DNA of 64,000 nt. Origin: Halonotius aquaticus (GTDB lineage: Archaea > Halobacteriota > Halobacteria > Halobacteriales > Haloferacaceae). Positions 50,373-64,000 of this stretch are shown one piece after another. Below the pieces are notes generated by a model. That model was not told the origin of the DNA. It did no database searches and was given only the letters and a program-made list of their open reading frames with translations. The stretch spans positions 1-64,000 of the forward strand of contig NZ_QKNY01000008.1 of the NCBI RefSeq assembly GCF_003605575.1. The letters are read 5' to 3'. The position numbers and the translations under genes are program-made. Positions within the stretch are counted from its first letter, which is position 1; each line of letters opens with the position of its first letter.

Positions 50373-50427
50373 CACTTACAGTGCGGTAAGTGGGTGGACA
50401 AACCTGTTAGTTAGCTTTTGTATATAT
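50373..50427 (+). promoter_or_regulatory. tandem-operator promoter of the first secreted protein
   Basis: Two inverted repeats precede a TATA box. Site 1 is CTTAC-AGTGCG-GTAAG (50375-50390; arms extend to CACTTAC/GTAAGTG). Site 2 is CAAAC-CTGTTA-GTTAG (50399-50414). The TATA box is TATATAT (50421-50427), centred 29 bp before the ATG at 50453. The same layout occurs at 53110 and 63432. Confidence 0.65.
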
Positions 50428-50452
50428 GCTCCCGGCAACTTTGTTTCCTTGT

Positions 50453-51058
50453 ATGGCAAAACTCCTTACACTGCTCATGGCGAGCCTCTTACTCGTCGGT
50501 ACAGTCTCAATCGGTGCGTCCGCATTTACCGCGGCGACCGTCGAACGATCAGCAAGCGTTGACGTTGTCGCAGACAACGAGGGCCTCTTGGCGCTCACCG
50601 ATGGTAACTCCGGTAACCTTGTCTTCCAAGACGGAAGCACCGAACAACTCGGCATTGACTTTGCCAGCGGCGACGCCGTCGGTGCGAACCCGAACGCCAC
50701 ATTCGAACTTGGGAATCCAGCAGATCCGACAGTTTCGAACGCATTTACAATTAAAAACCAAGATGCTGAACAGCACCAGATCAATGTTGCGTACACGGGC
50801 GCGACCCAAAACGGCGAGGAGAATCTTAAGTTCGAGATCTACGACAGCACCGGTACGTCCGTTGGGACTGTGACTGAGGAAGGAACAACTGCCTCGTTCA
50901 CTGCCCCTGCCACTGACACGTTCTACACGGTCGTCACGGTCGATACCGGTGGCGGCAGTGCCGCAACGGATCTCACCTCGGCCGATGACCTCTCGGGGAC
51001 AATTTCGTTCACTATCGACGACGTTGACGAAGGCGGTACCAACTCCGACGGGAACTAA
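50453..51058 (+). CDS. secreted TasA/camelysin-like (DUF1102-type) protein
   Basis: A 201-residue exported protein. An N-terminal hydrophobic segment (residues 3-20, LLTLLMASLLLVGTVSIGAS) is followed by the haloarchaeal motif SAFTAATVERSASVDVVADN and GLLAL. The remainder is strand-rich and full of Thr, Asp and Gly, as in extracellular fibre subunits, and ends in an acidic tail. It lacks sortase or archaeosortase signals. The next gene is a signal peptidase that may process it. The TasA-like assignment rests on this motif and on context. Start fixed by the promoter. Confidence 0.7.
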   Translation: MAKLLTLLMASLLLVGTVSIGASAFTAATVERSASVDVVADNEGLLALTDGNSGNLVFQDGSTEQLGIDFASGDAVGANPNATFELGNPADPTVSNAFTIKNQDAEQHQINVAYTGATQNGEENLKFEIYDSTGTSVGTVTEEGTTASFTAPATDTFYTVVTVDTGGGSAATDLTSADDLSGTISFTIDDVDEGGTNSDGN

Positions 51059-51115
51059 TCGGGGTACCGCGTAGCGTCGAATCGGGCAGCAATTTCGCTT
51101 TCACACTCATCCCTC

Positions 51116-52213
51116 ATGCTCAGACACGCTGGATACCTGTTGCTGGTTGCGGTTGTAGTGGCACTGCTCGCGCCAGCCGCATCACCGATCCAGCTTTCAC
51201 ACGTCACCTCCGACAGTATGGAACCGACCATTCAAACAGGTGACGGCTACATTCTCGTTCCCGCCGGCGACGTGATCCCCGGCGAGATTGTGACGTTCTA
51301 CTCCGAAGAGCGGGCGGGGTACGTCACCCACCGGGTGGCTGGAACGACAACAGGCGGCTTCATCACCAAGGGTGATGCCAACCCCTCGACCGATCAGGAC
51401 GCCGGCAGCCCACCTGTTCCACGAGCGGCAATCACCGGGCAGGTGCTGTCTCCGTTCGGTCAGCCATTCGTGATTCCGCACCTTGGGACAGCCGTCGGCG
51501 TAATTCGCGCACACTGGAGTGTGCTATTCGGCTTGGTTGCCGTCTCGCTGCTGGTGACGCTGCTCCGTGGTGATACTACCGTTGGGACTCGGACAGATGA
51601 ACGGTCAGTGCTTCGGAGCCGAGAGGTGATCACCAGCATGCTTGTGATCGGGCTCGTCGCCAGCACGCTGCTTGTCTCCATGGGAGCGATTCATAGTGAG
51701 TTCACCTACCCGGTTACTGAATCCGGGGACGGGAACGCTCGACAACTAGCTGTCGGCGACCCCACAACCGTGTCTATGGAGGCCAGCATCTCGACGACTC
51801 CGGCAACAACCATCTTCGTTGAGACCGACGGAATGCGCCTCCTCAATACAACAGCGGGTGCCTCGGCGGCAGCAGCAAACACCTCCGCAGCAGGCCAGCA
51901 ACCCCCGTTCGGGCTTTTCGGACGGATTCGCGGACAGTTTATCACGGCGTCCCAGATGACGATCAACGCTGCAATCCCTGGCCAAGCCGAACCCGGCTCA
52001 CACACGGTCAGCGTGAGCGTGTATCCGTACCCCGCAACGCTCCCGCGAGGCGTACTCAGCTGGTTGCATGCGGTACATCCGATATTAGCCGCAGTTGGGT
52101 CGGCCGTCGTGCCGTTCGGGCTGGGCTACGTCGGCTACTGGCTCGTGGTTGACCCGGCAACACCGCTTCGCGAGTCACGACGCCGGTGGCTCCACCGGCT
52201 GGGTGATCGCTAA
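51116..52213 (+). CDS. SipW/ER-type signal peptidase with C-terminal extension
   Basis: A 365-residue membrane protease. Residues 1-95 are the S26B signal peptidase core: an N-terminal membrane helix, catalytic Ser34 in VTSDSMEPTIQTGD, His72 in GYVTHRV (His in place of the Lys of bacterial LepB, as in SipW and the ER/archaeal enzymes), and FITKGDANPSTD with the Asp. An unusual extension of over 200 residues follows: two membrane helices, an extracellular Thr/Ala-rich domain and a final helix near 320-345. It stands between two likely substrates. Confidence 0.88.
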   Translation: MLRHAGYLLLVAVVVALLAPAASPIQLSHVTSDSMEPTIQTGDGYILVPAGDVIPGEIVTFYSEERAGYVTHRVAGTTTGGFITKGDANPSTDQDAGSPPVPRAAITGQVLSPFGQPFVIPHLGTAVGVIRAHWSVLFGLVAVSLLVTLLRGDTTVGTRTDERSVLRSREVITSMLVIGLVASTLLVSMGAIHSEFTYPVTESGDGNARQLAVGDPTTVSMEASISTTPATTIFVETDGMRLLNTTAGASAAAANTSAAGQQPPFGLFGRIRGQFITASQMTINAAIPGQAEPGSHTVSVSVYPYPATLPRGVLSWLHAVHPILAAVGSAVVPFGLGYVGYWLVVDPATPLRESRRRWLHRLGDR

Positions 52214-53004
52214 TGAGTCGCACACGACGCTCTCGTCGGCGTAGCGCCGGTGGACGCAGCCCGTGGGTACTTATTGGGCTTCTCGTTCTCGTCGTTCTCG
52301 GCGCGTTCGGGGCCGGCGTTGACACCGGCAGTGGTGCATTCACGAGCGCGGCAAGCGACCGCGGCGCGTCGGTTGCTGTCGCGAGCGATGACAGCGGACT
52401 CCTTGGCATTACTGTCGCCACGAGTGTTACCGCCGGGAGTCCGAGTCAACTCGTCACTGTGACAAACAATATCAATCGGACACTGACTGTCGAGGTTGCC
52501 TCGTCGGCGACCCTCTCGAACAGTCAGGCGACACTCGGCCCCGACGAGTCACTGACAACAGACGCGACGGTCAGTTGTTCGTCACCGCCGAGCAACCTGG
52601 AAATGACGATCACTGCAAGCGCGGATGGACAGTTCAGCGGCGTTGCAACCCGCTCCGTGCCAGTTGATACGAGTAACTGTGAGGACTCGACGCTCAGCTT
52701 CGGGACGCTCGACATCCTCGATCAGACGACGAGCGCGAAGGGCGGCAAAGCGGAGTACGCTGTCAGCTACAGTCTCGACGGCAACACCACCTCGTTCGAC
52801 CGCGTGAGTGTCGACTTCGAGAATCTCGATAAGGCAGACGGTATCCTCACACGATCCTCAACGGTTCAGAGCGATACGATCAGGTTCCAAAGTGGGGGCC
52901 AGCGGTTCGGCAACCGCTATGAGATCACCGTCCGGCTGTTTACCGACACCGGTGAGATTCAGCGTGAACAGGTTGTCGTGACGGATACCGCCGACGGCAG
53001 TTGA
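52213..53004 (+). CDS. second TasA/DUF1102-like secreted protein
   Basis: A 263-residue protein whose start overlaps the signal peptidase stop by one base. A very basic N-tail (MSRTRRSRRRSAGGRS) precedes a membrane segment (18-38). Then comes GAFTSAASDRGASVAVASDD with GLLGI, closely similar to the motif in the 50453 gene. The body is strand-rich with several short repeats (SSATLSNSQATLGPDESLTT) and two Cys that could form a disulfide. It is likely exported and cleaved by the adjacent peptidase. Confidence 0.72.
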   Translation: MSRTRRSRRRSAGGRSPWVLIGLLVLVVLGAFGAGVDTGSGAFTSAASDRGASVAVASDDSGLLGITVATSVTAGSPSQLVTVTNNINRTLTVEVASSATLSNSQATLGPDESLTTDATVSCSSPPSNLEMTITASADGQFSGVATRSVPVDTSNCEDSTLSFGTLDILDQTTSAKGGKAEYAVSYSLDGNTTSFDRVSVDFENLDKADGILTRSSTVQSDTIRFQSGGQRFGNRYEITVRLFTDTGEIQREQVVVTDTADGS

Positions 53005-53109
53005 ATGGGCTCTGTATCGTCGTACCGATATCTCAACGTCGACGCTCGATACATTGCGACATCGACGTGTTGGCACCGGCTGTCACAGCTACAGGGAGCA
53101 GCACGTGGG

Positions 53110-53162
53110 CACTTACTTGTTGGTAACTGCCCCACAAACCAATTAGTTATCTTATAATTATA
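53110..53162 (+). promoter_or_regulatory. tandem-operator promoter of the DUF5305 gene
   Basis: Site 1 is CTTAC-TTGTTG-GTAAC (53112-53127). Site 2 is CAAAC-CAATTA-GTTAT (53135-53150). The TATA box TTATAATTATA (53152-53162) is centred 30 bp before the ATG at 53187. Order and spacing match the promoters at 50373 and 63432. Confidence 0.65.
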
Positions 53163-53186
53163 TGTGCTGACCGCCAGTCTAGTGAT

Positions 53187-54707
53187 ATGAGTCGAAGTGT
53201 TGAGACGGTTTTCCTCCGATTGAAGTATCTTTGCAGCCGATACGGCAAGCTTGCCGCTATCGCTCTCGTTGTGGTGAGCAGCCTTGCCCTTGCCGGGAGT
53301 GCGGTGGCTTACACCGCACCACCTGAGACAACGCAAATAACCCAGCAGACAGATGTCCAGTCGTTTACCACGACGGTCAACACCAGTGCGGCTGTCACAG
53401 GCAACACGACGCTGTATAGCCCCGACGACCAGCTCGCGAATATGCCGGTGTATCTGCTTGACGCCTCCCCAGAAATGACCTTACAGGCACATACTGCAGT
53501 TCCCGATGATCGCCCTGTTGAGGTTACTCAGCAGATCACAATGGAATTGTACGCCACCAGAGACGAGGAGGTATTCTGGACGGAAACAGAACCACTTGCG
53601 ACAGACTCCCGACGTGTGACAGACGGCACAGTTGTCACCGAGACAACAGTCGATATACGGGCAATCCGCCAAGGCCGGCTTCAAGAGGTGCAGCCGGAAG
53701 TCAAGAACGTGGGAACGCTTCACGCCAAATTCCACGTTGACACGGTCTACAATACTGACAAGTACGACGGTCATCTGACCGTCACGACACCCGTCGAGAT
53801 CACCGATCGCGCCTACGCTATCGAGACACCGCAGTCAGCTGAACGCCAGCATTCGACAGCAGTGACACGGACGCTGGCAAACGCTGGTGAGCGAATCACA
53901 TTCGGCGCGCCGGCCACGGCGAACACAACGACGCAGGCAGGGATCGGGCCGTCATTCGGTGGTGAAGCGATGACACTCCCGAAGCAGTCTGTCATCTGGG
54001 GGGGCGTCGGCGTGCTTGGGCTTCTCCTCGCACTCGTTGTGTGGCGCTTTCACAGCCGATCCCCTGACTGGCAGTCGCTGAAGCGAACCTACGACAAGAC
54101 CCGATACGGCGAGTGGATCTCACGTGGAACCGTCCCGGAGACAGACTCATACGAGGACGTCCGGATCGAGGGGTTGACTGACCTGCTCGACATCGCGATC
54201 GACTCCAACAAGCGAATCATCCACGACCCGACACAGGGTCGCTATGCGGTGGTTGATGGTGCGGTGCTCTATGAGTACAACGAAGCTCTCGACCAACTCG
54301 ACGCATACATCGATGTTGCTGCAGGCGAGCAGATCACCACCGGCTCACAGGAGACGTTCTTTGCAGCCCCCGACGACAGCGAGCCCGACGAGTCAGTCTG
54401 GGAGGCGTTCGATGAGGATAGCGACCTCCAGACAGACCATCCGGCGACCACGTCGGACCGTGAGTCGTCAGCAGACGAGATGCTGATCGAGTCCCACGCT
54501 GACCCAGAAGATGACTCCCTCCCGATTGTGTCGTCGGCCGACGATGAGCTAGATACGTCCGTCTGGGACGTATTCAACGACGTGATCGACCGCTCTGATG
54601 CGACCGCCGGAACGACTGCATTCTTTGGGTCTGCTGAAGACGCTGACGCGGTCGATCCGCAGGAGCACTCTCGAACCGATATGATCGGTGATCCAGCAGA
54701 CGACTAG
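53187..54707 (+). CDS. DUF5305 membrane protein with large extracellular domain
   Basis: A 506-residue protein. An N-terminal membrane helix (about 22-42) is followed by an extracellular strand-rich region (45-265) with many short Thr/Val strands, then a second helix at about 270-290 (VIWGGVGVLGLLLALVVWRF). The cytoplasmic part has DUF5305-type sequence (WQSLKRTYDKTRYGEWISRG, then ALYEYNEALDQ-like VLYEYNEALDQLDAYIDVAA). The last 130 residues are an acidic disordered tail. It may anchor or guide the neighbouring secreted proteins; that is inferred from context and shared promoter sites. Confidence 0.78.
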   Translation: MSRSVETVFLRLKYLCSRYGKLAAIALVVVSSLALAGSAVAYTAPPETTQITQQTDVQSFTTTVNTSAAVTGNTTLYSPDDQLANMPVYLLDASPEMTLQAHTAVPDDRPVEVTQQITMELYATRDEEVFWTETEPLATDSRRVTDGTVVTETTVDIRAIRQGRLQEVQPEVKNVGTLHAKFHVDTVYNTDKYDGHLTVTTPVEITDRAYAIETPQSAERQHSTAVTRTLANAGERITFGAPATANTTTQAGIGPSFGGEAMTLPKQSVIWGGVGVLGLLLALVVWRFHSRSPDWQSLKRTYDKTRYGEWISRGTVPETDSYEDVRIEGLTDLLDIAIDSNKRIIHDPTQGRYAVVDGAVLYEYNEALDQLDAYIDVAAGEQITTGSQETFFAAPDDSEPDESVWEAFDEDSDLQTDHPATTSDRESSADEMLIESHADPEDDSLPIVSSADDELDTSVWDVFNDVIDRSDATAGTTAFFGSAEDADAVDPQEHSRTDMIGDPADD

Positions 54708-54908
54708 CAGCCACGACGCCTCTCAGCGGCTGTGGGCAGCTGGGTGATAGCTAAGGCGGCAATTCTCTGCTGTTGTGGACAACGTGGATCTTAAATCGAT
54801 CGCTGAGCACTTCGCTCCAACCAGATTCGGTTGCTCGCAGGGTCAGTCCGATGGCCTGCCATGTTGCCGATGCAACACCCAACAGACCGCGTTCCGCTTT
54901 TGAGCCAG
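54708..54908. other. intergenic region between convergent genes
   Basis: About 200 bp between the DUF5305 gene and the end of the signalling operon. I see no convincing gene, RNA or repeat. The plus-strand frame from about 54777 reads DNVDLKSIAEHFAPTRF and then ends, which could be a relic of a lost gene but is too short to assign. Confidence 0.4.
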
Positions 54909-55994
54909 TTACGACACTGCGTCGAGTGTGACGGTAAACACGCTGCCTGTCGGCTCGTTGTCTCTAAGAGTCACTGAGCCGTTGTACATATCGACGAGGG
55001 TATCAACAAGATATAGTCCGATCCCAGAGCCGGAGCTTTCTAGACCCATCTCCCCGCGACCGAAGATCTCATCCTTTTGGGTATCGGGCACTCCTGGTCC
55101 GTTGTCAGCGATTTCGACAGCGATGCTGTCGCCGTCGTCGGTAACGGTCACCGTGATCTCCGGTTCGGCTTTGTCGTTATGCGAAACAGCATTGTTCAGA
55201 ATGTTCCGAAACACCGAGGACAGCAGGTCTGTCGCAACAACCTCACAGCCGCTGTCAAGGTCGCCGCTGACCGTGATCGTCGCGTCGTCGTAGGCTGACC
55301 GGGCCTTTTCGATCTCGTTTGTCAGTATCCGGTCGAGGTTGACCGGGTGGAGCTCCGGATCACTCTCGCCTTCGAGGACGCTGAGGAAATCGCCGATCGT
55401 CTCGGTGATGTTCGTGATGTGTTCACTGGCATTTAACATTCGTTCCAGATGGGCTTCGCCCTCGCTGTCAACATGGGCTTTGAGCCCCTCGCCCCAGCCG
55501 ACAATCACGGCGACATCGTTGCGGATATCGTGGCGAACAACCTGATTCAACAGCGCCAACTCGGCGTTCCGCTGTCGGAGCTCCTGTTGTTGCTGTTCCC
55601 GACGGATCGCATACCGCAGTGTTTGTTGGAGCAACCGCGGTGAAATATCGTCTTTGACAAGGTAATCTTGTGCGCCGTGTTCGACGGCGTCGACACCAAC
55701 GCGTTCGTCATCGAGCCCGGTCAGGACAACCACAGGGGCCGACGCCCCAACAGCCAGCAGTTGGTCAAGCGTTTCAACACCGCTGCTATCCGGGAGGCCG
55801 AGATCCGAGAGGACGAGATCAACCTCGTCGGTGAGTGCCTCACGAGCCTCCGCAAGTCGTTCAACGTGGTCGATCGTCGGTGCGTCGGCATCGAGGTTCG
55901 GCCACGACTGTTCGGTGATGTACTCTCTGATCAGGCGCGCGTCGGCCGGATTATCCTCGACAAGGAGAATGTGGGTCAGTGATTGCTTACTCAT
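54909..55994 (-). CDS. receiver-histidine kinase hybrid
   Basis: A 361-residue protein. The receiver (about 5-125) has ILLVEDNPADARLI, phospho-Asp in VLSDLGLPDSSGVETL and Lys in DYLVKDDISP. The linker helix RREQQQQELRQRNAELALLN leads to the HisKA box NQVVRHDIRNDVAVIVGWGE. The HATPase domain has VFRNILNNAVSHNDKA, IADNGPGVPDTQKDEIFGRG and GSGIGLYLVDTLVDMYNG. It should be activated by phosphorylation of its receiver. Last gene of the operon; overlaps the upstream receiver gene by eight bases. Confidence 0.9.
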   Translation of the reverse strand: MSKQSLTHILLVEDNPADARLIREYITEQSWPNLDADAPTIDHVERLAEAREALTDEVDLVLSDLGLPDSSGVETLDQLLAVGASAPVVVLTGLDDERVGVDAVEHGAQDYLVKDDISPRLLQQTLRYAIRREQQQQELRQRNAELALLNQVVRHDIRNDVAVIVGWGEGLKAHVDSEGEAHLERMLNASEHITNITETIGDFLSVLEGESDPELHPVNLDRILTNEIEKARSAYDDATITVSGDLDSGCEVVATDLLSSVFRNILNNAVSHNDKAEPEITVTVTDDGDSIAVEIADNGPGVPDTQKDEIFGRGEMGLESSGSGIGLYLVDTLVDMYNGSVTLRDNEPTGSVFTVTLDAVS

Positions 55995-56442
55995 TGGCTG
56001 GTGTTCGGGTGGCGGTTGTAATCCAAAAATCGATTGTTGCGTCAATCATGTCGATATAGTTGTCTGGATCAGTTGGCTTTGTGACGTAGGCGTTGGCGGC
56101 GTGTTCATACGCACGGTTGATATCGTCGCGGCTCTCCGAACTCGAAATGATCACCACGGGCACATCCTGAAACGGGGTTTCGGTGCGAACCAAGGTGAGC
56201 AGCTCAAGTCCGGATGTCCCTGGAAGATTCAGATCTAAGAGTATTAAATCCGGGTGATCATCGGGCGCATCGGCGTCGATCGCCCGAAGTTGATCGGCGG
56301 CCGTTCGGCCACTGTTGTAGACGGTGAGTGCCAGTTCGACACCGGCGGCCGCAACACCCTCTTCCATCAGTCGCACATCGGCCGGGTTATCTTCGACCGC
56401 AATTACCCGTGGCACCGCTGTGTGAGCAGTTTGTTCACTCAT
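55987..56442 (-). CDS. single-domain response regulator (Rcp1-like)
   Basis: A 151-residue stand-alone receiver: VIAVEDNPADVRLMEEGVAA, phospho-Asp in LILLDLNLPGTSGLELLTLV (about residue 68), and the conserved Lys in NAYVTKPTDPDNY. There is no output domain, so it acts through protein contacts or phosphotransfer. Its start overlaps the giant kinase's stop by eight bases, and its end overlaps the hybrid kinase, implying a relay kinase to receiver to hybrid. Confidence 0.9.
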   Translation of the reverse strand: MSEQTAHTAVPRVIAVEDNPADVRLMEEGVAAAGVELALTVYNSGRTAADQLRAIDADAPDDHPDLILLDLNLPGTSGLELLTLVRTETPFQDVPVVIISSSESRDDINRAYEHAANAYVTKPTDPDNYIDMIDATIDFWITTATRTPANE

Positions 56443-59400
56443 CTGTTTGTTCCCCATGTGGCAGCGAGATCGTGAATGTCGACCCCTCTCCCGGGGTGGA
56501 TTGCACGTCAATTGTTCCATCGTGGCGATCGACGATCTTGCGGCAGATCGACAGCCCGATCCCGGTACCACCGAACTCCTCGCGTGTGTGGAGCCGCTGG
56601 AACACCTCGAAGATGTCGTCGATCTGGTCGGCTTCCATCCCGATCCCGTTGTCGGTGATATCGATGACAACCATCTCATCGTCGTGTCGAACCGAGATAT
56701 CGATTTTCGGGCGATCGGTGTTGTACTTGATGCCGTTGTCGATGAGGTTCTGGAACAGTTGGGCCAGTTGGCTGTGATCGCCGGTGACTGTCGCCGTAGT
56801 CGCTGGCAGCGACACCGTTGCGTCAGCTTCGTCGATCTTGACGCTGAGATCATCGGTGACCTGTTCCAGGAGGGGTCTCACTTCGATCGACTCGAAGGAT
56901 TCCCCGCGGGTGTCAACCCGTGAGTACGCCAACAGCGCTTGGATCATCTTTCGCATGCGATCGGCCCCATCGACGGCAAACTCGATGAACTCGCTGGCGT
57001 CCCCATCAAGTTCCTCGCCGTATCGGCGCTCTAGCAGCGTCAGATAGCTCGATACCGTGCGGAGTGGTTCCTGAAGGTCGTGTGAGGCCGCGTACGCGAA
57101 CTGTTCGAGTTCCTCGTTGGAGCGTTTGAGCTCGGCTTGGGTTTCCCGAAGCACTGTCTCCCGTTCGGCTCGGGTGAGGGCAGCCTCGACAGTCGAGGAC
57201 AACACCTCAAAGAGGTTCAGATCCGCCTCGGAGAACGCCTGCGATTTCACCGCGCCTGCACACATGACCCCGTGATCGCCGAGTGGGACGATCGCCTCGG
57301 ATTCAAGCATCGTTTCATCGTTGTGTAACGCATCGACCGCACTCAGATCATCATAGGCCTGGAACTCGCCGGATTCGAAGACCCGCCAGGCGAGAGCTGT
57401 GTCATCCTCGAAGACCGGCTGTTCGTCGATGTACTCTGTCGCCGACTCAGCCATCCCCGCCGGGACAAGGGCTTCGCGGTCGTCGTCGTACCACCAGATT
57501 CCTGTCAACGGCGTATGCAACAGTTCTGTGGCGCTCTCAACCGCGATTGACGCGATCTGTGACCGGTCAGGAACGGTCATGAGCTGTTTGGCTGTGTCGT
57601 TGATATCCCGTAGTTTCCGTTCGACGGTTTGGGTGGCAAGCTCGTGACTAATCCACTGAACAAGGAGTTCTACGAACGCACGCTCCGTGTCGGTGAACTC
57701 GTGGTCACGCCGCTGTTGGTCGGCGAAACAGAGTGTGCCGTACTGGGTGCCGTCGACGGTGACGGTGCCGCCGATATAGCAGCCGAAGGCATATCGTTCG
57801 TATGCCGGATCAGTACCCCACCCCTCGGCGACCGCATCCTGTACCTCAACTGGGTCGGATTGGGTGAGTGTTTTTCGACAGTAGGTGTCTGATTTCGGGG
57901 CTGAGGCACCAGCCTGAAGATCGGGATGATCGCCAACAGCCTGCACGACGTGTTGTGTGCCGTCTTCGATCCGGTTCAAAAAGCCATACGGGAGTCCGAG
58001 TCGTTCGGTACCGAGTGTGAGGAGGGCATCAAGCTTTTCGTCAAACTCGCGGTCGGTATCGGCGGCGATGGTGGTGAGTTCACGAACCGACTGTTCGCTC
58101 TCCCGTAGTGACCGTTCAAGTCGTTTCTGTTCGGTCACATCGATCAGGTAGCCGAGGTAGTGGGTGATTTCCCCGTCAGTCCGAATGATCTTGGTATTAT
58201 CTGTCACCCACCGGATCTCTCCGTCGGCCGTCACCATCCGGTATGGATCGTGCCTGAAGCGATCGACGGCGTTGTCTTTGGCCTCGGCGACCTCATCCAT
58301 GACGCGATCGAGATCGTCGTCGTGGATCAGGTCGGCATACGGAATTTCCCCGGATCGGAGTTGTTCGGGTGTGTAGCCAAACGTCTCAGCGACGTTCTTC
58401 GAGACATATTCAACCGGCCACCCGTCGTCGTTCTCCCATTTGAACACGACGGCTGGCCCCTCGGCGAACATGTCTCGCTCCTCTTCAAGTTGGAGTTTCG
58501 ATTCCTTCTCCTCGGTGATATCGAGATGAATACCGACTGCCCGCGTTGGTGTCCCGTCGTCATCGCGGTCGACGACCTTCCCGACATCCCTGATCCACCG
58601 GTAGTCGCCGGCTTTGGTCTGCATCCGGTGTTCGCAGTCATACAGGTCGGCGTCGCCGTCGATATGGGCGTTCAGAGCCGCCTCAACGTCCGGCATATCG
58701 GCGGGATGGACGCGGTTTTCCCACGTTTCGAGCCGTGGTTCGAGTTCATCCAGCGAGAACCCGAGTATCGATGCCCACTGCTCGTTGAACGTGACCGCGT
58801 CTGTTTCCATATCCCAGTCCCAGACGCCGAGGTTCGCGCCCTCAACAGCCAGATCGAGCCGTTCTTTTACTTCCCGGAGTTCCTCATCGCGTTCCTTGCG
58901 GTCGGTGATATCCTGGAAGATGCCCAACGCTCCGGTGATATTTCCTGCCTCATCGAACTGTGGATCGCCGACTGCCCGAACCCACCGCGTTCGGTCGGCC
59001 GCGGTGATGAGCCGAAGTTCGAGATCGTACGACTCACCGTCGCTGATGAGTCGATCAAAGGCCGCTTCGATCTGTGGTCTGTCATCCGGGTGGTAAAATT
59101 CGATGCCGTCACTGAGGTCTATGTCGGTGTCGGTCGGGAGGTCGTGAATCCGGTAGACCTCGTCAGTCCAGCGGAGTGAGTCCGTCGTAAGGTCGACTTC
59201 CCACCCGCCGATGGACGCACTCTCTTGGGCCTGCTCGATGAACTCCCGGCTTCGTTTGAGTTCCGTTTCCCGCTGTTTTCGCTCGGTGATATCCCGATCC
59301 ACAGCGATGTATCGGGCGTTGCCGTCGACGTCGATCTTGTTCACCCAGACTTCAACCGGGAACGTCTCGCCGTCTGCTCGGCGGTGCTTGCCTTCGACTT

Positions 59401-61987
59401 TCAGAGTATCGTTCATCTCCATCCCCGCCCAGATGTCGGTGAGTTCCGACTGCTCGATCCCGGCTTCGAACTCGGCGACGTTCATCGACCGCAGCGTGTC
59501 CCGGTCGTAGCCCAGCGAGTCGGCCATGGTTTGGTTGACATCGATCACGGTGCCGTCGGCGGTGTGGATTACGATGTTGTCCGGTGAGTTGTCGAACAGG
59601 GCTCGCAGCCGGCTTCGCTGCTGGCGGAGTTCCGCTTCGCGCTGTTTTTGTGCGGTGATATCGCGGTTCGTACAGATCAACTCGCCGCTGTCGAGTAGGG
59701 CGAGGCCGAGATCCTGCGTGACCGCGGTTCCATCCCGTTTGCGACCGACTGTCTCCCCGCGCCAGGAGCCGGTGTCGGCGAGTTCCGGGAACACCTCGGC
59801 TTCGAGCCGTTCGATCTCATCATCGTCGTAGAGGGTACGCCACTCCTCGCCGAGCAGTTCCTCGGGCTCGTAGTCGAAGACATCAGCGTGCGCCTGATTC
59901 ATGTAGACATACTCATCGCCATCGAGGATGGCGATCCCGTCCATCGCAACCTCCATCGCCGCCGACTGGAGTTCGATCTCGGCGTCCCGCTGTTTGCGCT
60001 CGGTCACATCGGTGGCGATCCCGACCAGTCGTCGTGGGGTGTTTGGCCCCGTGTGTAGTTCGGCCCGCGCTTCGACCCACATCTCCGTTCCGTCGTCTTG
60101 CTCGACTCGATACTCCACCTGGAGGGAGTCACCGTTCTCGGTTGCTTCCTTGAGTGACGCCTCTACCGCCGGGACATCGTCCGGATGGACAAGCTCCAAG
60201 AACTCCTCGTAGGTGCCCTCGGATGTGCCGGGGTCGAGGCCGAACAGTTGTTCCATCGACTCCGTCCAGATGACCTCATTCGTTTCGAGGTTTAGTTCCC
60301 AGACACCCGCGTTTGTTGCCTCTAAGGCCACAGTGAGCCGCTGTGATGTCTCTTCGAGTGCCCGCCGCTGTTCGGTCATTTCGGTGATATCGGTTGCGAC
60401 ACCCAAGACTGCCTCTGTGTCGTGGTCGACCGGTTCGTACGGGATCTTGATCGTCTGGAGCATCACCGTCTCGCCGTCGGCTTTCGTCAGTGGCTCCTCC
60501 GGGATGTGTTTCGGCTCACCGGAGTCCATCACGGCGAGGTCGTCCTGTCTGAACTGTTCGGCTTCGGCCTCCGAGGAGACGAAATCGGCGTCGGTCGAGC
60601 CCTCGACATCCTCGACGGTCGTCCCATAGGCGTCGGCAATCGCTTGGTTGGCCAGAATATACTCGTTGTTTCGATCCTTGGCGAACACCAACTGTGGCAA
60701 CAGATCGATGATCTGCCGGAGTCGATCCCGGTTTGCGGCCGCCCGCTGTTTGTTCTGCTGTCGGCTCAGTTCCTTGCCAACCCACTGGGCGAAAAGGCGC
60801 ACAAGCGTTCGTTCGCTCTCGGTAAACGGCTGTTCGCGTGCGGCTGCCTGCGAAAAGTTCAGCGTGCCGTACCGCTCGCCGTCGACGATCACCGCCGTCC
60901 CGAGATACGATCTGAGGCCCTGTTGCTCGTAGGCTGGATGATCGGCCAGATCGCTGTCGCTGGCGTCGGCCGCAGCCACGAGTTCTTCCGTGTCGACGAC
61001 GAGATCACAAAACGTCTCACCGAGATCGAACTGCTCGCCCGGCCGGATGCTGTCGTCGGGAGCCGTGACCTGCTCGACGGTGTACTCGGTGTCGTCGATC
61101 GTCGAGAGAATCCCGATATCGAGCCCGAGATGGTCACAGCCGAGTTCTAACACCGCATCGATTCGCTCGTCGGCCGCTCGCTCATCGTCGATCGAGATCT
61201 CGTGGAACCGCTGGAGGGTGTCGGTGTAGGATTCCAGTGTTTGTTCGTACTCGATCCGTGCGCTGGCGTCCCGCACCGAGCCAAGGAAGGCCAGCACTTC
61301 GCCGTCCGGGCCTTTGAGGGGTGTCCCAAGTGTTTCACCCATGAACGTCGTGCCATCGGCCCGCTCGTATTCGACGATATACGTCTCCTCGTTCACCGCG
61401 GCGTGCTCGTTGAACCGCTCGTCGCCCTGTCGGTCGTAGGCCTCGTCGTTGGCATAGAGCAGCCGAGTCGTTTCGCCGAGCACGTCGCTGGCCGCGTAGC
61501 CAAAGAGCTGTTCGGCTGCGGCGTTGAAATCGGTGATCCGGCGGTCGGTATCGGCGACAATGAGTGCGTCCTCGGTCTCTTCAAACACCGTCTCGAACAA
61601 CTGTCGCTGTCGCCGCTGATCGAGTCGGTCGCCCCGCTCCTCGGTCACATCGTCAAAACACGCGGTGATCCCGTCGTCGTCGGGATAGAGCCGAACCTCG
61701 AACCAGCGATCGAGGGCATCGTTGTAGTGTTCAAACCGGGTCGGCGTCTGTGTCGACATCGCTGTCCGGAGTTCGTCGCCAACGGCCGTGTCGGTGATTG
61801 ACGGGATAGCTTCCCAGACGTCGCTGCCATGGAGTTCACCAGCGGACTGTCCCAACATCCTCGCCGCTTTGTCATTGACGAAGGTGAGTTCCCACTCGGC
61901 GTTGAGTGAACAGATCGCCTCGTCAACACGATCGAGAATCCGCCCGGGCGTGCCATCGCCCGCATTGGTTGCTGTATCGGAACTCAT
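56435..61987 (-). CDS. 1850-residue sensor histidine kinase with about nine PAS and three GAF domains
   Basis: A soluble multi-sensor kinase. Rough order: PAS 15-115, PAS 125-255, GAF 260-420, seven further PAS domains 425-1310, GAF 1315-1460, GAF 1465-1615, HisKA 1620-1690, HATPase 1720-1845. PAS ends show repeated DITERKQRE-type PAC motifs. The kinase core has QFAYAASHDLQEPLRTVSSY (phospho-His), LAQLFQNLIDNGIKYNTDRP, ITDNGIGMEADQIDDIFEVF and GTGIGLSICRKIVDRHDG. No membrane helix was seen, so it should sense internal cues (light, redox, oxygen or small ligands). Coupled to both neighbours. Confidence 0.93.
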   Translation of the reverse strand: MSSDTATNAGDGTPGRILDRVDEAICSLNAEWELTFVNDKAARMLGQSAGELHGSDVWEAIPSITDTAVGDELRTAMSTQTPTRFEHYNDALDRWFEVRLYPDDDGITACFDDVTEERGDRLDQRRQRQLFETVFEETEDALIVADTDRRITDFNAAAEQLFGYAASDVLGETTRLLYANDEAYDRQGDERFNEHAAVNEETYIVEYERADGTTFMGETLGTPLKGPDGEVLAFLGSVRDASARIEYEQTLESYTDTLQRFHEISIDDERAADERIDAVLELGCDHLGLDIGILSTIDDTEYTVEQVTAPDDSIRPGEQFDLGETFCDLVVDTEELVAAADASDSDLADHPAYEQQGLRSYLGTAVIVDGERYGTLNFSQAAAREQPFTESERTLVRLFAQWVGKELSRQQNKQRAAANRDRLRQIIDLLPQLVFAKDRNNEYILANQAIADAYGTTVEDVEGSTDADFVSSEAEAEQFRQDDLAVMDSGEPKHIPEEPLTKADGETVMLQTIKIPYEPVDHDTEAVLGVATDITEMTEQRRALEETSQRLTVALEATNAGVWELNLETNEVIWTESMEQLFGLDPGTSEGTYEEFLELVHPDDVPAVEASLKEATENGDSLQVEYRVEQDDGTEMWVEARAELHTGPNTPRRLVGIATDVTERKQRDAEIELQSAAMEVAMDGIAILDGDEYVYMNQAHADVFDYEPEELLGEEWRTLYDDDEIERLEAEVFPELADTGSWRGETVGRKRDGTAVTQDLGLALLDSGELICTNRDITAQKQREAELRQQRSRLRALFDNSPDNIVIHTADGTVIDVNQTMADSLGYDRDTLRSMNVAEFEAGIEQSELTDIWAGMEMNDTLKVEGKHRRADGETFPVEVWVNKIDVDGNARYIAVDRDITERKQRETELKRSREFIEQAQESASIGGWEVDLTTDSLRWTDEVYRIHDLPTDTDIDLSDGIEFYHPDDRPQIEAAFDRLISDGESYDLELRLITAADRTRWVRAVGDPQFDEAGNITGALGIFQDITDRKERDEELREVKERLDLAVEGANLGVWDWDMETDAVTFNEQWASILGFSLDELEPRLETWENRVHPADMPDVEAALNAHIDGDADLYDCEHRMQTKAGDYRWIRDVGKVVDRDDDGTPTRAVGIHLDITEEKESKLQLEEERDMFAEGPAVVFKWENDDGWPVEYVSKNVAETFGYTPEQLRSGEIPYADLIHDDDLDRVMDEVAEAKDNAVDRFRHDPYRMVTADGEIRWVTDNTKIIRTDGEITHYLGYLIDVTEQKRLERSLRESEQSVRELTTIAADTDREFDEKLDALLTLGTERLGLPYGFLNRIEDGTQHVVQAVGDHPDLQAGASAPKSDTYCRKTLTQSDPVEVQDAVAEGWGTDPAYERYAFGCYIGGTVTVDGTQYGTLCFADQQRRDHEFTDTERAFVELLVQWISHELATQTVERKLRDINDTAKQLMTVPDRSQIASIAVESATELLHTPLTGIWWYDDDREALVPAGMAESATEYIDEQPVFEDDTALAWRVFESGEFQAYDDLSAVDALHNDETMLESEAIVPLGDHGVMCAGAVKSQAFSEADLNLFEVLSSTVEAALTRAERETVLRETQAELKRSNEELEQFAYAASHDLQEPLRTVSSYLTLLERRYGEELDGDASEFIEFAVDGADRMRKMIQALLAYSRVDTRGESFESIEVRPLLEQVTDDLSVKIDEADATVSLPATTATVTGDHSQLAQLFQNLIDNGIKYNTDRPKIDISVRHDDEMVVIDITDNGIGMEADQIDDIFEVFQRLHTREEFGGTGIGLSICRKIVDRHDGTIDVQSTPGEGSTFTISLPHGEQTDE

Positions 61988-62874
61988 TGGCTGGCTCCAA
62001 ACACCTGCTCGATGGTTGCCGGATCGATCTCCGCGCGTTCGTCCTCGGAGAGTTCAAGCTCCGTGAGTCGCGTCTGGAGTTGTTGAAACTCCTCGTTTGT
62101 ATCGAGGGTTTCCTCAGGGTACTCGGCCCGAAGGAGCGCGAGCTTCGACTGGAGGGCCAGATACGTCTGTAGTTCAGTGCTATACTCCCGGCGTTCAAAC
62201 AGGTCTGCCACCACCGCTCGGAGTTCATCTTGCCGGACAGGTTTCATGAGATACTCGTCGAAGCCCATCTCCATCACATCGAGATCAACATCCTCGGAGG
62301 TCACCATGACGACCCGGATATCGTACCGCTGGGAGCGAATCCACTCAAGCACCTCGCTCCCGGACAGTCCCGGCATTCGGCGGTCAAGCACGACAACACC
62401 AACATCGGTATCGAGTTGTCGGAGGGTTTCCTCACCATCACTGGCGGTTCGAACGGTGTACTCGTCGCTGAGCCAGGTCGTATGCATTGTGCTGACCCGC
62501 TTGTGGTCGTCGGCTACCAAGACGACCTGTTCAGTGTTCGGCTCCGCAAGGTGGGTCTCACTCCAGTCAACAAGGGATTCGATGACGTCGTCGAGCTCCT
62601 CGCCGCGTTCGGTCAGCGTATAGCTGACCCGGAGCGGACTCTGGCTGATCTCACGTCGCTCGATGATCGCATACTCCTGGAGTTCGCTGAGCGCGTCGGT
62701 GAGCACCTTCGCGGAGATGCCATCAAGGCGGCTCTCAAGATCGCTAAAGCCATAGCCATCACTGCCGGACAGACAGCGGACGATTGCGGGATGCCACTTC
62801 TTTGAGAGCAGTGAGACACTATCGAGCAGTGAGTCCGGCACCACCGGTGTCTCGTGTGTCCGAGAATCTTGCAT
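61984..62874 (-). CDS. HxlR-type HTH fused to receiver and HalX domains
   Basis: A 296-residue regulator with three parts. Residues 10-110 form an HxlR-like winged helix (LLSKKWHPAIVRCLSGSDGY, then SLESRLDGISAKVLTDALSE-like LDGISAKVLTDALSELQEYA, then PLRVSYTLTERGEELDDVIE). Residues 118-230 are a receiver with phospho-Asp in VVVLDRRMPGLSGSEVLEWI and Lys in DEYLMKPVRQ. Residues 230-296 are a helical HalX domain. HTH before REC reverses the usual regulator order. It overlaps the giant kinase by four bases and should be its DNA-binding output. Confidence 0.9.
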   Translation of the reverse strand: MQDSRTHETPVVPDSLLDSVSLLSKKWHPAIVRCLSGSDGYGFSDLESRLDGISAKVLTDALSELQEYAIIERREISQSPLRVSYTLTERGEELDDVIESLVDWSETHLAEPNTEQVVLVADDHKRVSTMHTTWLSDEYTVRTASDGEETLRQLDTDVGVVVLDRRMPGLSGSEVLEWIRSQRYDIRVVMVTSEDVDLDVMEMGFDEYLMKPVRQDELRAVVADLFERREYSTELQTYLALQSKLALLRAEYPEETLDTNEEFQQLQTRLTELELSEDERAEIDPATIEQVFGASQ

Positions 62875-62884
62875 AGTATACTAA

Positions 62885-63352
62885 CTACCCGTCAGGATAT
62901 AAGCACGTTGCCGGATACTGTGCCCATTCGAACCAGAATCGTAGTATTGAGTCAATGCGCTCGGTATACGCCGCGGGTGTCTGTGGGAGTTGTACGTAGG
63001 CGTTGCCCTCGGCCTGATATATCTGAGTGTTATCGCTGTCGTCGGGATCAAGCACAACAACCGGCAGCTGTTCGAGCCGCGGGCTGGCCCTGATCGCCTG
63101 AAGCACCGTCTGTCCGTCGGGGAGGGTGAAATCAAGCTGTAACAGGACGAGATCAGGCAGTTGGAGCTCGTCTGGTGTCTCACTGGCGGCGATAAGCTGT
63201 TTGAGTGCCGCCTGCCCATCAGTGACGACATCGACGCTGACTGCGTCGGGCGTCGACTCGGCACAGATGGTCGCCAGATCCACTTTGGGTGTGCCGACAA
63301 ACAGAACGTGTGAGTTCGCGGTGTCAGCTGTCGGGGTGATTTGTGCTCCCAT
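62885..63352 (-). CDS. degenerate receiver-domain protein (pseudo-response regulator)
   Basis: A 155-residue receiver fold missing its phosphorylation chemistry. The acidic pair near the start is replaced (HVLFVGTPKVD against the ED of its neighbour). The phospho-Asp position reads Gln in LVLLQLDFTLPDG, and the conserved Lys is Leu in NAYVQLPQTPAAY. The rest aligns well with the single-domain receiver at 55987, so it is a diverged paralogue. It probably acts by binding partners rather than by phosphorylation. First gene of the signalling operon. Confidence 0.82.
   Translation of the reverse strand: MGAQITPTADTANSHVLFVGTPKVDLATICAESTPDAVSVDVVTDGQAALKQLIAASETPDELQLPDLVLLQLDFTLPDGQTVLQAIRASPRLEQLPVVVLDPDDSDNTQIYQAEGNAYVQLPQTPAAYTERIDSILRFWFEWAQYPATCLYPDG
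62895..62903 (-). promoter_or_regulatory. internal TATA box for the HxlR-REC-HalX gene
   Basis: The minus strand reads CTTATATCC, centred about 25 bp before the ATG at 62874 and lying within the last codons of the pseudo-receiver gene. It suggests that the regulator and kinase can be transcribed separately from the pseudo-receiver. Confidence 0.5.
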
Positions 63353-63431
63353 CACGCGTGTCCCATCCTGGTCATGACCGCTACCTGAAACAACATTACT
63401 GGCATGTCTGAAAAACAGGGGTAAATATGAT

Positions 63432-63484
63432 CGCTAACCGCGGCGTAAGTCGGTCACTAACCTGTTGGTTAGCCTGTTTTTTTA
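63432..63484 (+). promoter_or_regulatory. tandem-operator promoter, third copy
   Basis: Site 1 is CTAAC-CGCGGC-GTAAG (63434-63449). Site 2 is CTAAC-CTGTTG-GTTAG (63457-63472), a perfect CTAACC-TGTT-GGTTAG palindrome. The T-rich TATA region TTTTTTTA (63477-63484) is centred about 30 bp before the ATG at 63511. It matches the promoters at 50373 and 53110. Confidence 0.6.
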
Positions 63485-63510: not shown

Positions 63511-63600
63511 ATGAACAAACAGGTTCAGTCAAACGCCAACGGCGGGTGTCGAACCTGCGGGTGGCCGTCCGACCGCAAGACCGTTTCGATGGAGCGTTGA
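63511..63600 (+). CDS. 29-residue CxxC micro-protein
   Basis: ATG at 63511 lies at the start predicted by the tandem-operator promoter and opens 29 codons (with NGGCRTCGWPSDRKTV) before TGA at 63598. One CxxC pair could bind half a zinc site or act in a dimer. It may be a real micro-protein or a leader for the GAF-domain gene that follows. I do not recognise a family. Confidence 0.45.
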   Translation: MNKQVQSNANGGCRTCGWPSDRKTVSMER

Positions 63601-63728: not shown

Positions 63729-64000
63729 ATGTCGACGACCCAACTCTCGGCGGGGACTGCCCGCGATCGCCTTGATTCAATCATTCGACAAGAGGCCCCG
63801 ATCGAACAGCAAGCGACCGACGCACTCGATCTCGGTACGGAGTATCTGGAGGCCGATGTCGGCGTTCTCGTCATGCGAGATCCGTCGACTGAGGCGATCG
63901 AACAGATCACCAGCACTGACTCCACAGCTGATGGTCTCCCTGCTCTCGATGAGTTGGTGACAGCAGGCTGTCACCCGTCCAGCGATCAGAAAACACAGGT
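63729..64000 (+). CDS. GAF-domain signalling protein, 5' part only (cut by window end)
   Basis: An open frame runs off the right edge. The 90 readable residues begin MSTTQLSAGTARDRLDSIIR, and the stretch TDALDLGTEYLEADVGVLVM resembles the start of haloarchaeal GAF domains, as found in kinases and bacterio-opsin-activator-like regulators. The start is uncertain: ATG 63729 is used, but the frame is open back to 63648 and a GTG at 63675 is possible. The output domain lies outside the window. Confidence 0.6.
   Translation, partial: MSTTQLSAGTARDRLDSIIRQEAPIEQQATDALDLGTEYLEADVGVLVMRDPSTEAIEQITSTDSTADGLPALDELVTAGCHPSSDQKTQ

Follow-up and report, generated by a model that had tools for sequence, protein, structure and literature searches.

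A conserved tandem operator in haloarchaea and its probable reader, a linked HxlR-REC-HalX response regulator

Response regulators that bind DNA are rare among archaea, according to a census of the two-component systems of this domain, which also describes the function of HalX as undocumented and finds the HxlR-REC-HalX architecture in Halobacteria only (Galperin et al. 2018, PMC5847659). The census gives neither an operator nor a target for this architecture, and we found no paper that does, in a literature search that covered few subscription journals. Here, we describe a tandem inverted-repeat operator in a 64,000-nucleotide stretch of the Halonotius aquaticus genome (contig NZ_QKNY01000008.1, positions 1 to 64,000), referred to below as the window. 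The operator precedes genes of a predicted secretion locus and the operon of a response regulator that has the same domain order as the HxlR-REC-HalX proteins of the census, and for which both an operator and a local regulon are now predicted. We estimate a probability of about 80% that these sites are the operator of the HxlR-REC-HalX protein encoded at 61984-62874 on the minus strand, and that this protein activates its own operon and a SipW/TasA-like locus as a local regulon.

Several described regulators resemble this system in part. Proteins of the HxlR family bind inverted repeats as dimers, and YodB prefers the site TACT-N7-AGTA (PMC8063818). The bacterial HxlR/DUF24 regulators YodB, QsrR and HxlR have inverted TAC/GTA half-sites in common with the sites in the window and provide the closest solved structures, but the arrangement described here is a tandem double operator, and a fused receiver domain takes the place of the redox cysteine switch. 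In haloarchaeal gas vesicle clusters, the activator GvpE acts at an upstream activating sequence (UAS) adjacent to the TFB recognition element (BRE) of divergent promoters, with a strict UAS-BRE distance (PMC4390858). The position just upstream of the BRE, the divergent promoters and the strict distance recur here. However, GvpE is leucine-zipper-like and its UAS, of another sequence, is a single 20-nt element made of two 8-nt elements 4 nt apart; in our locus we found no leucine-zipper protein or 8-N4-8 UAS, and instead an HxlR-REC-HalX protein and two palindromes 23 bp apart, and the parallel concerns the mode of working only. TFB-RF1 of the Thermococcales, also an activator, acts from a palindrome that precedes a weak BRE at a conserved distance, and controls its own gene and one further operon (PMC5937170). 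It is similar to our system in the position of the palindrome relative to the BRE and in autoregulation, and differs in its palindrome (TCTGAANTTCAGA), its single site and its lack of a receiver domain.

Six sites with the pattern CWWAC-N6-GTWA form three pairs in the window, at 50375/50399, 53112/53135 and 63434/63457, with start-to-start spacings of 24, 23 and 23 bp. The inner sites start 54, 52 and 54 bp upstream of the ATGs at 50453, 53187 and 63511, respectively. All of these positions and distances agree with the sequence-only reading of this DNA that preceded our analysis, and the extended arms that it described in two of the copies, CACTTAC/GTAAGTG and CTAACC/GGTTAG, are both present. 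Its characterization of the spacing as two helical turns needs adjustment, as 23 bp corresponds to 2.2 turns. A-T-rich boxes are centered approximately 29-30 bp upstream of each ATG, as that reading also stated, but the box for 63511 (TTTTTTTA) is a poor TATA box. At the promoter of the TasA-like gene, the outer site CTTACAGTGCGGTAAG (50375-50390), whose -78 position is the same in seven other loci, and the inner site CAAACCTGTTAGTTAG (50399-50414, at -54) are followed by TATATAT at 50421-50427 on the plus strand, centered at -29. The DUF5305 promoter contains the outer site CTTACTTGTTGGTAAC (53112-53127), the inner site CAAACCAATTAGTTAT (53135-53150), 52 bp upstream of the ATG, and the TATA-like box TTATAATTAT (53153-53162, plus strand). 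The third operator consists of CTAACCGCGGCGTAAG (63434-63449), which is inner for a minus-strand promoter, and CTAACCTGTTGGTTAG (63457-63472), which is inner for a plus-strand promoter. The distance of approximately 26-30 bp from the TATA boxes to the start codons suggests leaderless or nearly leaderless transcripts.

We searched the host genome (2.47 Mb in 18 contigs) for two copies of CWWAC-N6-GTWA with a gap of 6-14 bp, using the reversed pattern as a control. Exactly three tandem pairs were found in the whole genome, all of them the operators of the window (the third is also read on the other strand), and the reversed pattern gave no pair; approximately 0.001 pairs are expected genome-wide at a spacing of 23/24 based on base composition. 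Nine single sites were observed in the window compared to 0.56 expected, three of the nine being the same palindromes matched on the opposite strand. The strict 16-mer CTWAC-N6-GTWAG occurs at three places in the genome, all inside the three operators. The reversed strict pattern has six matches elsewhere, so the striking feature is the placement of the sites and not the count of single sites.

A survey of 394 genomes of the order found the exact tandem pair in 18 and close orthologs (at least 60% identity) of the HxlR-REC-HalX protein in seven. The exact pair is present in six of these seven genomes, compared to 12 of the 387 others (Fisher p = 2.5e-8). In the remaining genome, G202, the pair upstream of the REC-HxlR operon is degenerate, with two mismatches. 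When up to three mismatches were allowed in the seven genomes, all of the best matches and most of the others were inside this locus. Relatives with the locus include Halohasta salina (two copies), two members of Halorubrum (sp. Boch-26 and LUM.57), two of Halorientalis (H. salina and LUM.68) and Salinibaculum KK48, in addition to A07HN63 and A07HR67, both uncultured archaea. The conserved locus has a secretion part, encoding a TasA-like protein, a SipW-like peptidase, a hypothetical protein and DUF5305, and a signaling part, encoding a REC protein, HxlR-REC-HalX, a large PAS/GAF kinase, a second REC protein and a REC-kinase. Conservation of the pairs before orthologous genes in other genera supports the proposal, made in the sequence-only reading, that the secretion and signaling loci share regulation.

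The geometry of the promoters is conserved as well. The consensus of 23 operators is CTTACC-N4-GGTAA(G/C) for the outer site and CTAAC-N6-GTTAG for the inner site, with information contents of 18.6 and 17.2 bits, respectively, which are somewhat inflated because the operators were picked by a consensus-like score. The two sites are 23 bp apart almost throughout. The inner site is 54 bp from the ATG of the TasA-like gene in the window and 55 bp in seven other CTTAC-type loci and in the genome G052, and it is 52 bp from the DUF5305 ATG in 11 of 11 loci measured. The distance to the ATG of the leader open reading frame (ORF) of the REC operon is mostly 51-53 bp, with 59 bp in one Halohasta copy. 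Operator scores were 16-20 out of 20 for linked TasA and DUF5305 promoters, compared to a maximum of 16 among 3000 stretches taken at random from the window, and to 12-15 in 19 unlinked TasA promoters, which resemble random sequence. Weak TATA boxes are common among the DUF5305 promoters. The REC promoter of one Halohasta salina copy (L140 / L064) has three operator sites in series with a 23-bp period.

The third operator sits between the minus-strand REC-HxlR operon and a plus-strand ORF of 29 amino acids (63511-63600). It had been assigned to the gene at 63511; the 54 bp to that ATG make the assignment plausible, but the conserved partner is the minus-strand operon. The operator is matched on the minus strand as well, with an ATG at 63396 located 53 bp away, and the minus-strand TATA box (CATATTTA, 63422-63429) is better than the plus-strand box. 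This ATG begins a leader ORF of 14 amino acids (MLFQVAVMTRMGHA, 63352-63396, minus strand) with a TGA that overlaps the ATG of the REC gene, and similar leaders are present in six other loci. Given the location of the operator before the REC operon in relatives, the better minus-strand TATA box and the coupled leader, the conserved target, as judged by sequence comparison, is the regulator's own REC-HxlR operon. It is plausible, if less well supported, that the operator also acts on the plus strand, toward the 63511 ORF and the downstream LOV kinase. Overlapping leader ORFs of 10-17 amino acids, with TGATG or TAATG at the stop/start junction, precede the REC gene in 7 of 10 loci (the window, L062, L063, L064, L065, L071 and L225); their length and overlap are conserved and their peptide sequence is not.

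Which protein reads the operator was approached by comparing 29 TasA-like genes, nine of them with a linked HxlR-REC-HalX or HxlR-REC gene and 20 without; for Halorubrum LUM.57, in which TasA and the regulator are on different short contigs, linkage was assumed. Seven of the nine linked loci have a CTTAC-type operator and two (G189 and G052) have a variant, while no operator was found at the 20 loci without a linked HxlR gene, one of which (L216) could not be placed. In G189 and G052, half-sites of the GTTAC/GTAAC type, with the same spacing and ATG distances, accompany a regulator of 34-39% identity. The recognition helix is SNKVL(A/S)NDL in these two regulators, compared to SAKVLTDAL in the CTTAC-type regulators, and Haloarcula regulators with 42-43% identity keep both SGKVLTDSL and the CTTAC operator. 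HxlR is the only recognized DNA-binding domain among the proteins of the conserved locus. From N- to C-terminus, the regulator contains an HxlR, a receiver and a HalX domain (PF01638, PF00072 and PF08663), with an HxlR score of 68.9 bits compared to a gathering score of 20.8. The phospho-acceptor aspartate is present, and residues D164, D123 and K211 are invariant in 16 homologs. The best PDB sequence matches to its N-terminal domain include YodB, QsrR and HxlR; a Foldseek search with the whole regulator model gave receiver-domain matches only, among the matches listed, and so contributes no information on the HxlR domain. Based on linkage, the match between helix and half-site, and the sole DNA-binding domain, the HxlR-REC-HalX protein is the best candidate for the operator-binding protein, which strengthens the nomination made in the sequence-only reading.

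We infer binding by this protein, its dimer stoichiometry, its control by phosphorylation and its activating effect along the following lines. The kinases and REC proteins of the locus would set the phosphorylation state of the regulator's receiver domain. The winged helix of the N-terminal HxlR domain would recognize, as a dimer, one CTTAC/CTAAC-N6-GTAAG/GTTAG palindrome, so that two dimers would lie next to each other at a distance of 23 bp, the inner one directly beside the BRE. The bound dimers may then recruit or stabilize TFB/TBP and thereby activate transcription. The predicted targets are the TasA-like/SipW operon, DUF5305 and the regulator's own REC-HxlR-kinase operon, the last of which would form a feedback loop. 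The regulon is probably local, as there are no further sites in the genome.

Several observations weigh against this model. The other proteins of the locus co-occur with the operator equally well, such that HxlR-REC-HalX cannot be singled out by linkage alone; a tandem site is missing upstream of most of the regulators with 42-50% identity; and the correlation between recognition helix and half-site rests on few independent lineages. Two of 10 REC promoters (Halorubrum LUM.57 and Salinibaculum) score 15-16, within the random range, and the inner site of the G189 TasA promoter is degenerate, with the automatic scan placing a tied pair elsewhere. In addition, the gap between TAC and GTA is 6 bp here and 9 bp in the YodB site TACT-N7-AGTA (PMC8063818); the comparison, with the same kind of half-site and a shorter spacer, is supportive and not decisive. 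An unlinked factor, such as a stand-alone HxlR protein or a Bat-type HTH_10 protein, could bind the operator with HxlR-REC-HalX as a mere neighbor, given that haloarchaea have many HxlR and HTH_10 proteins and that a few genomes have tandem pairs but no close ortholog of the regulator. We regard this as very improbable, because the operator tracks the linked regulator gene locus by locus, its half-site type tracks the regulator's recognition helix, and it precedes the regulator's own operon. Chance likeness or low-complexity A-T-rich promoter sequence can be given negligible weight: the A-T richness of promoters, and nothing beyond it, speaks for such an origin, which is contradicted by the genome-wide uniqueness of the pairs, the reversed-pattern control, the conservation across families and the fixed geometry.

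If the HxlR-REC-HalX protein does bind, it could repress, with the inner dimer blocking TFB/TBP until phosphorylation releases it. Many bacterial HxlR/DUF24 proteins, including YodB and CatR, are repressors, the inner site directly adjoins the BRE, and the presence of the operator before the regulator's own operon would fit negative autoregulation. Repression nevertheless appears unlikely, as the sites are upstream of the BRE, TATA box and start and not over them, several of the TATA boxes are weak, and they lie at a base-exact distance from the start codon, as expected for an activator that must touch TFB/TBP (GvpE needs close UAS-BRE spacing). Activation is more likely than repression because a position just upstream of the BRE/TATA at a fixed distance matches the activators GvpE and TFB-RF1. 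It is also quite doubtful that the third operator serves only the plus-strand side, with the 63511 ORF and the LOV kinase. The 54-bp distance, the two short ORFs that abut each other and the kinase start, and a degenerate pair approximately 51 bp before an ATG on the kinase side in Halorubrum Boch-26 would fit this assignment, but the operator in relatives precedes the REC-HxlR operon, and in the window the better TATA box and the coupled leader ORF 53 bp away are on the minus strand.

The operator, which relatives preserve with base-pair precision, supplies what is, as far as our literature search shows, the first predicted binding site and the first predicted target genes for a little-studied class of archaeal regulator. 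For a member of this class, it defines an operator, a fixed promoter geometry and a compact predicted regulon, with Halorubrum and Haloarcula among the genera concerned, and the proposed picture is that of a promoter-proximal regulator that acts locally through tandem sites. Two-component gene control in archaea can now be tested directly, as can the control of a fibre-like secretion locus, and the natural CTTAC/GTTAC operator variants offer a test of specificity.

The secretion part of the window begins with the TasA/camelysin-like secreted protein gene (50453-51058, plus strand), followed on the same strand by an archaeal/SipW-type signal peptidase I (51116-52213), which matches TIGR02228 above its cutoff and the SipW model below its cutoff. 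Next are a secreted protein with a sub-threshold match to a TafC family fimbrial model (52213-53004; NF052521, E=1.7e-11, 43.8 bits compared to a cutoff of 410) and the DUF5305 membrane protein (53187-54707; PF17231, E=8.7e-33). The minus strand encodes a REC-histidine kinase (54909-56045), a stand-alone REC protein (55987-56442), a multi-PAS/GAF histidine kinase of 1850 amino acids (56435-61987), the HxlR-REC-HalX regulator and the divergent REC protein (62885-63352), the first main gene of the regulator operon. A small secreted beta-rich protein adjoining a SipW-like signal peptidase is also characteristic of SipW/TasA biofilm-fibre loci, and a SipW-type peptidase is linked in nearly all of the homologous TasA-like loci. 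Here, however, the TasA-like protein has no match in Pfam or NCBIfam, including the TasA/camelysin family models, and was identified by the position of its gene beside that of the SipW-type peptidase and by a weak resemblance in fold. Its structural model (predicted local distance difference test score, pLDDT, 64.6), examined for a jelly roll like that of archaeal or bacterial TasA-type filaments, weakly resembles the bundling pili of the archaeon Pyrobaculum (7ueg; probability 0.98 but template modeling score, TM, approximately 0.3), and other weak matches include Sulfolobus threads. We treat a fibre function of the TasA-like locus as a working hypothesis. A literature search for haloarchaeal TasA and for TafA/TafC/TafE fimbriae gave no relevant papers.

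Related arrangements occur elsewhere. The genome of the window (L156, G000 contig 5) and its genus (L161, G366) have a second SipW/DUF5305-like locus with a kinase and a divergent HxlR-REC paralog (48% identity); this locus (C5) lacks the tandem operator, and the recognition helix of its paralog is different. In Haloarcula, a CTTAC operator with 24-bp spacing (L074 9787-9826, L162 10489-10528) lies between the gene for the 42-43% identical HxlR-REC-HalX protein and a divergent gene for a secreted protein of the twin-arginine type (approximately 460 amino acids), 63 bp upstream of the latter's ATG. Tandem pairs in other families (L150, L152, L164-L167) are not beside TasA-like genes. Two of these, near 10181 in L166 and near 9738 in L167, belong to two genomes of another family and are CTAACTACAGGGTAAG-type pairs upstream of a lipoprotein gene, in whose vicinity HxlR-REC-HalX gave no match. 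In-frame stop codons, possibly due to decay or sequencing error, interrupt the regulator match of A07HR67 (L070 10001-10867) and the LOV kinase of Halorubrum Boch-26 (L063 7191-9089).

On the plus strand between 63511 and 63729, the ORF of 29 amino acids and a second of 42 amino acids, each abutting the next start and both containing cysteines, lead up to the ATG of the LOV kinase. The likeness of the inner site to the bop UAS and the GAF-like start of this next gene prompted a Bat/HTH_10 regulator as a candidate, which was rejected, as the gene encodes a GAF-HK-PAS-LOV kinase without a DNA-binding domain. As a conjecture, a self-contained phosphorelay might switch TasA-type fibres through a private operator of the linked regulator, in which case operator and helix would co-evolve and the leader ORF of a leaderless mRNA would keep the promoter geometry. 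Light input to the locus, and to such a phosphorelay, is possible through the kinase starting at 63729 (L006 1830-3821), which has a GAF-HK-PAS arrangement and a LOV-like C-terminal domain (GRNCRFPQG). The cysteine of the LOV-like domain is conserved in Halorubrum Boch-26 and Halohasta.

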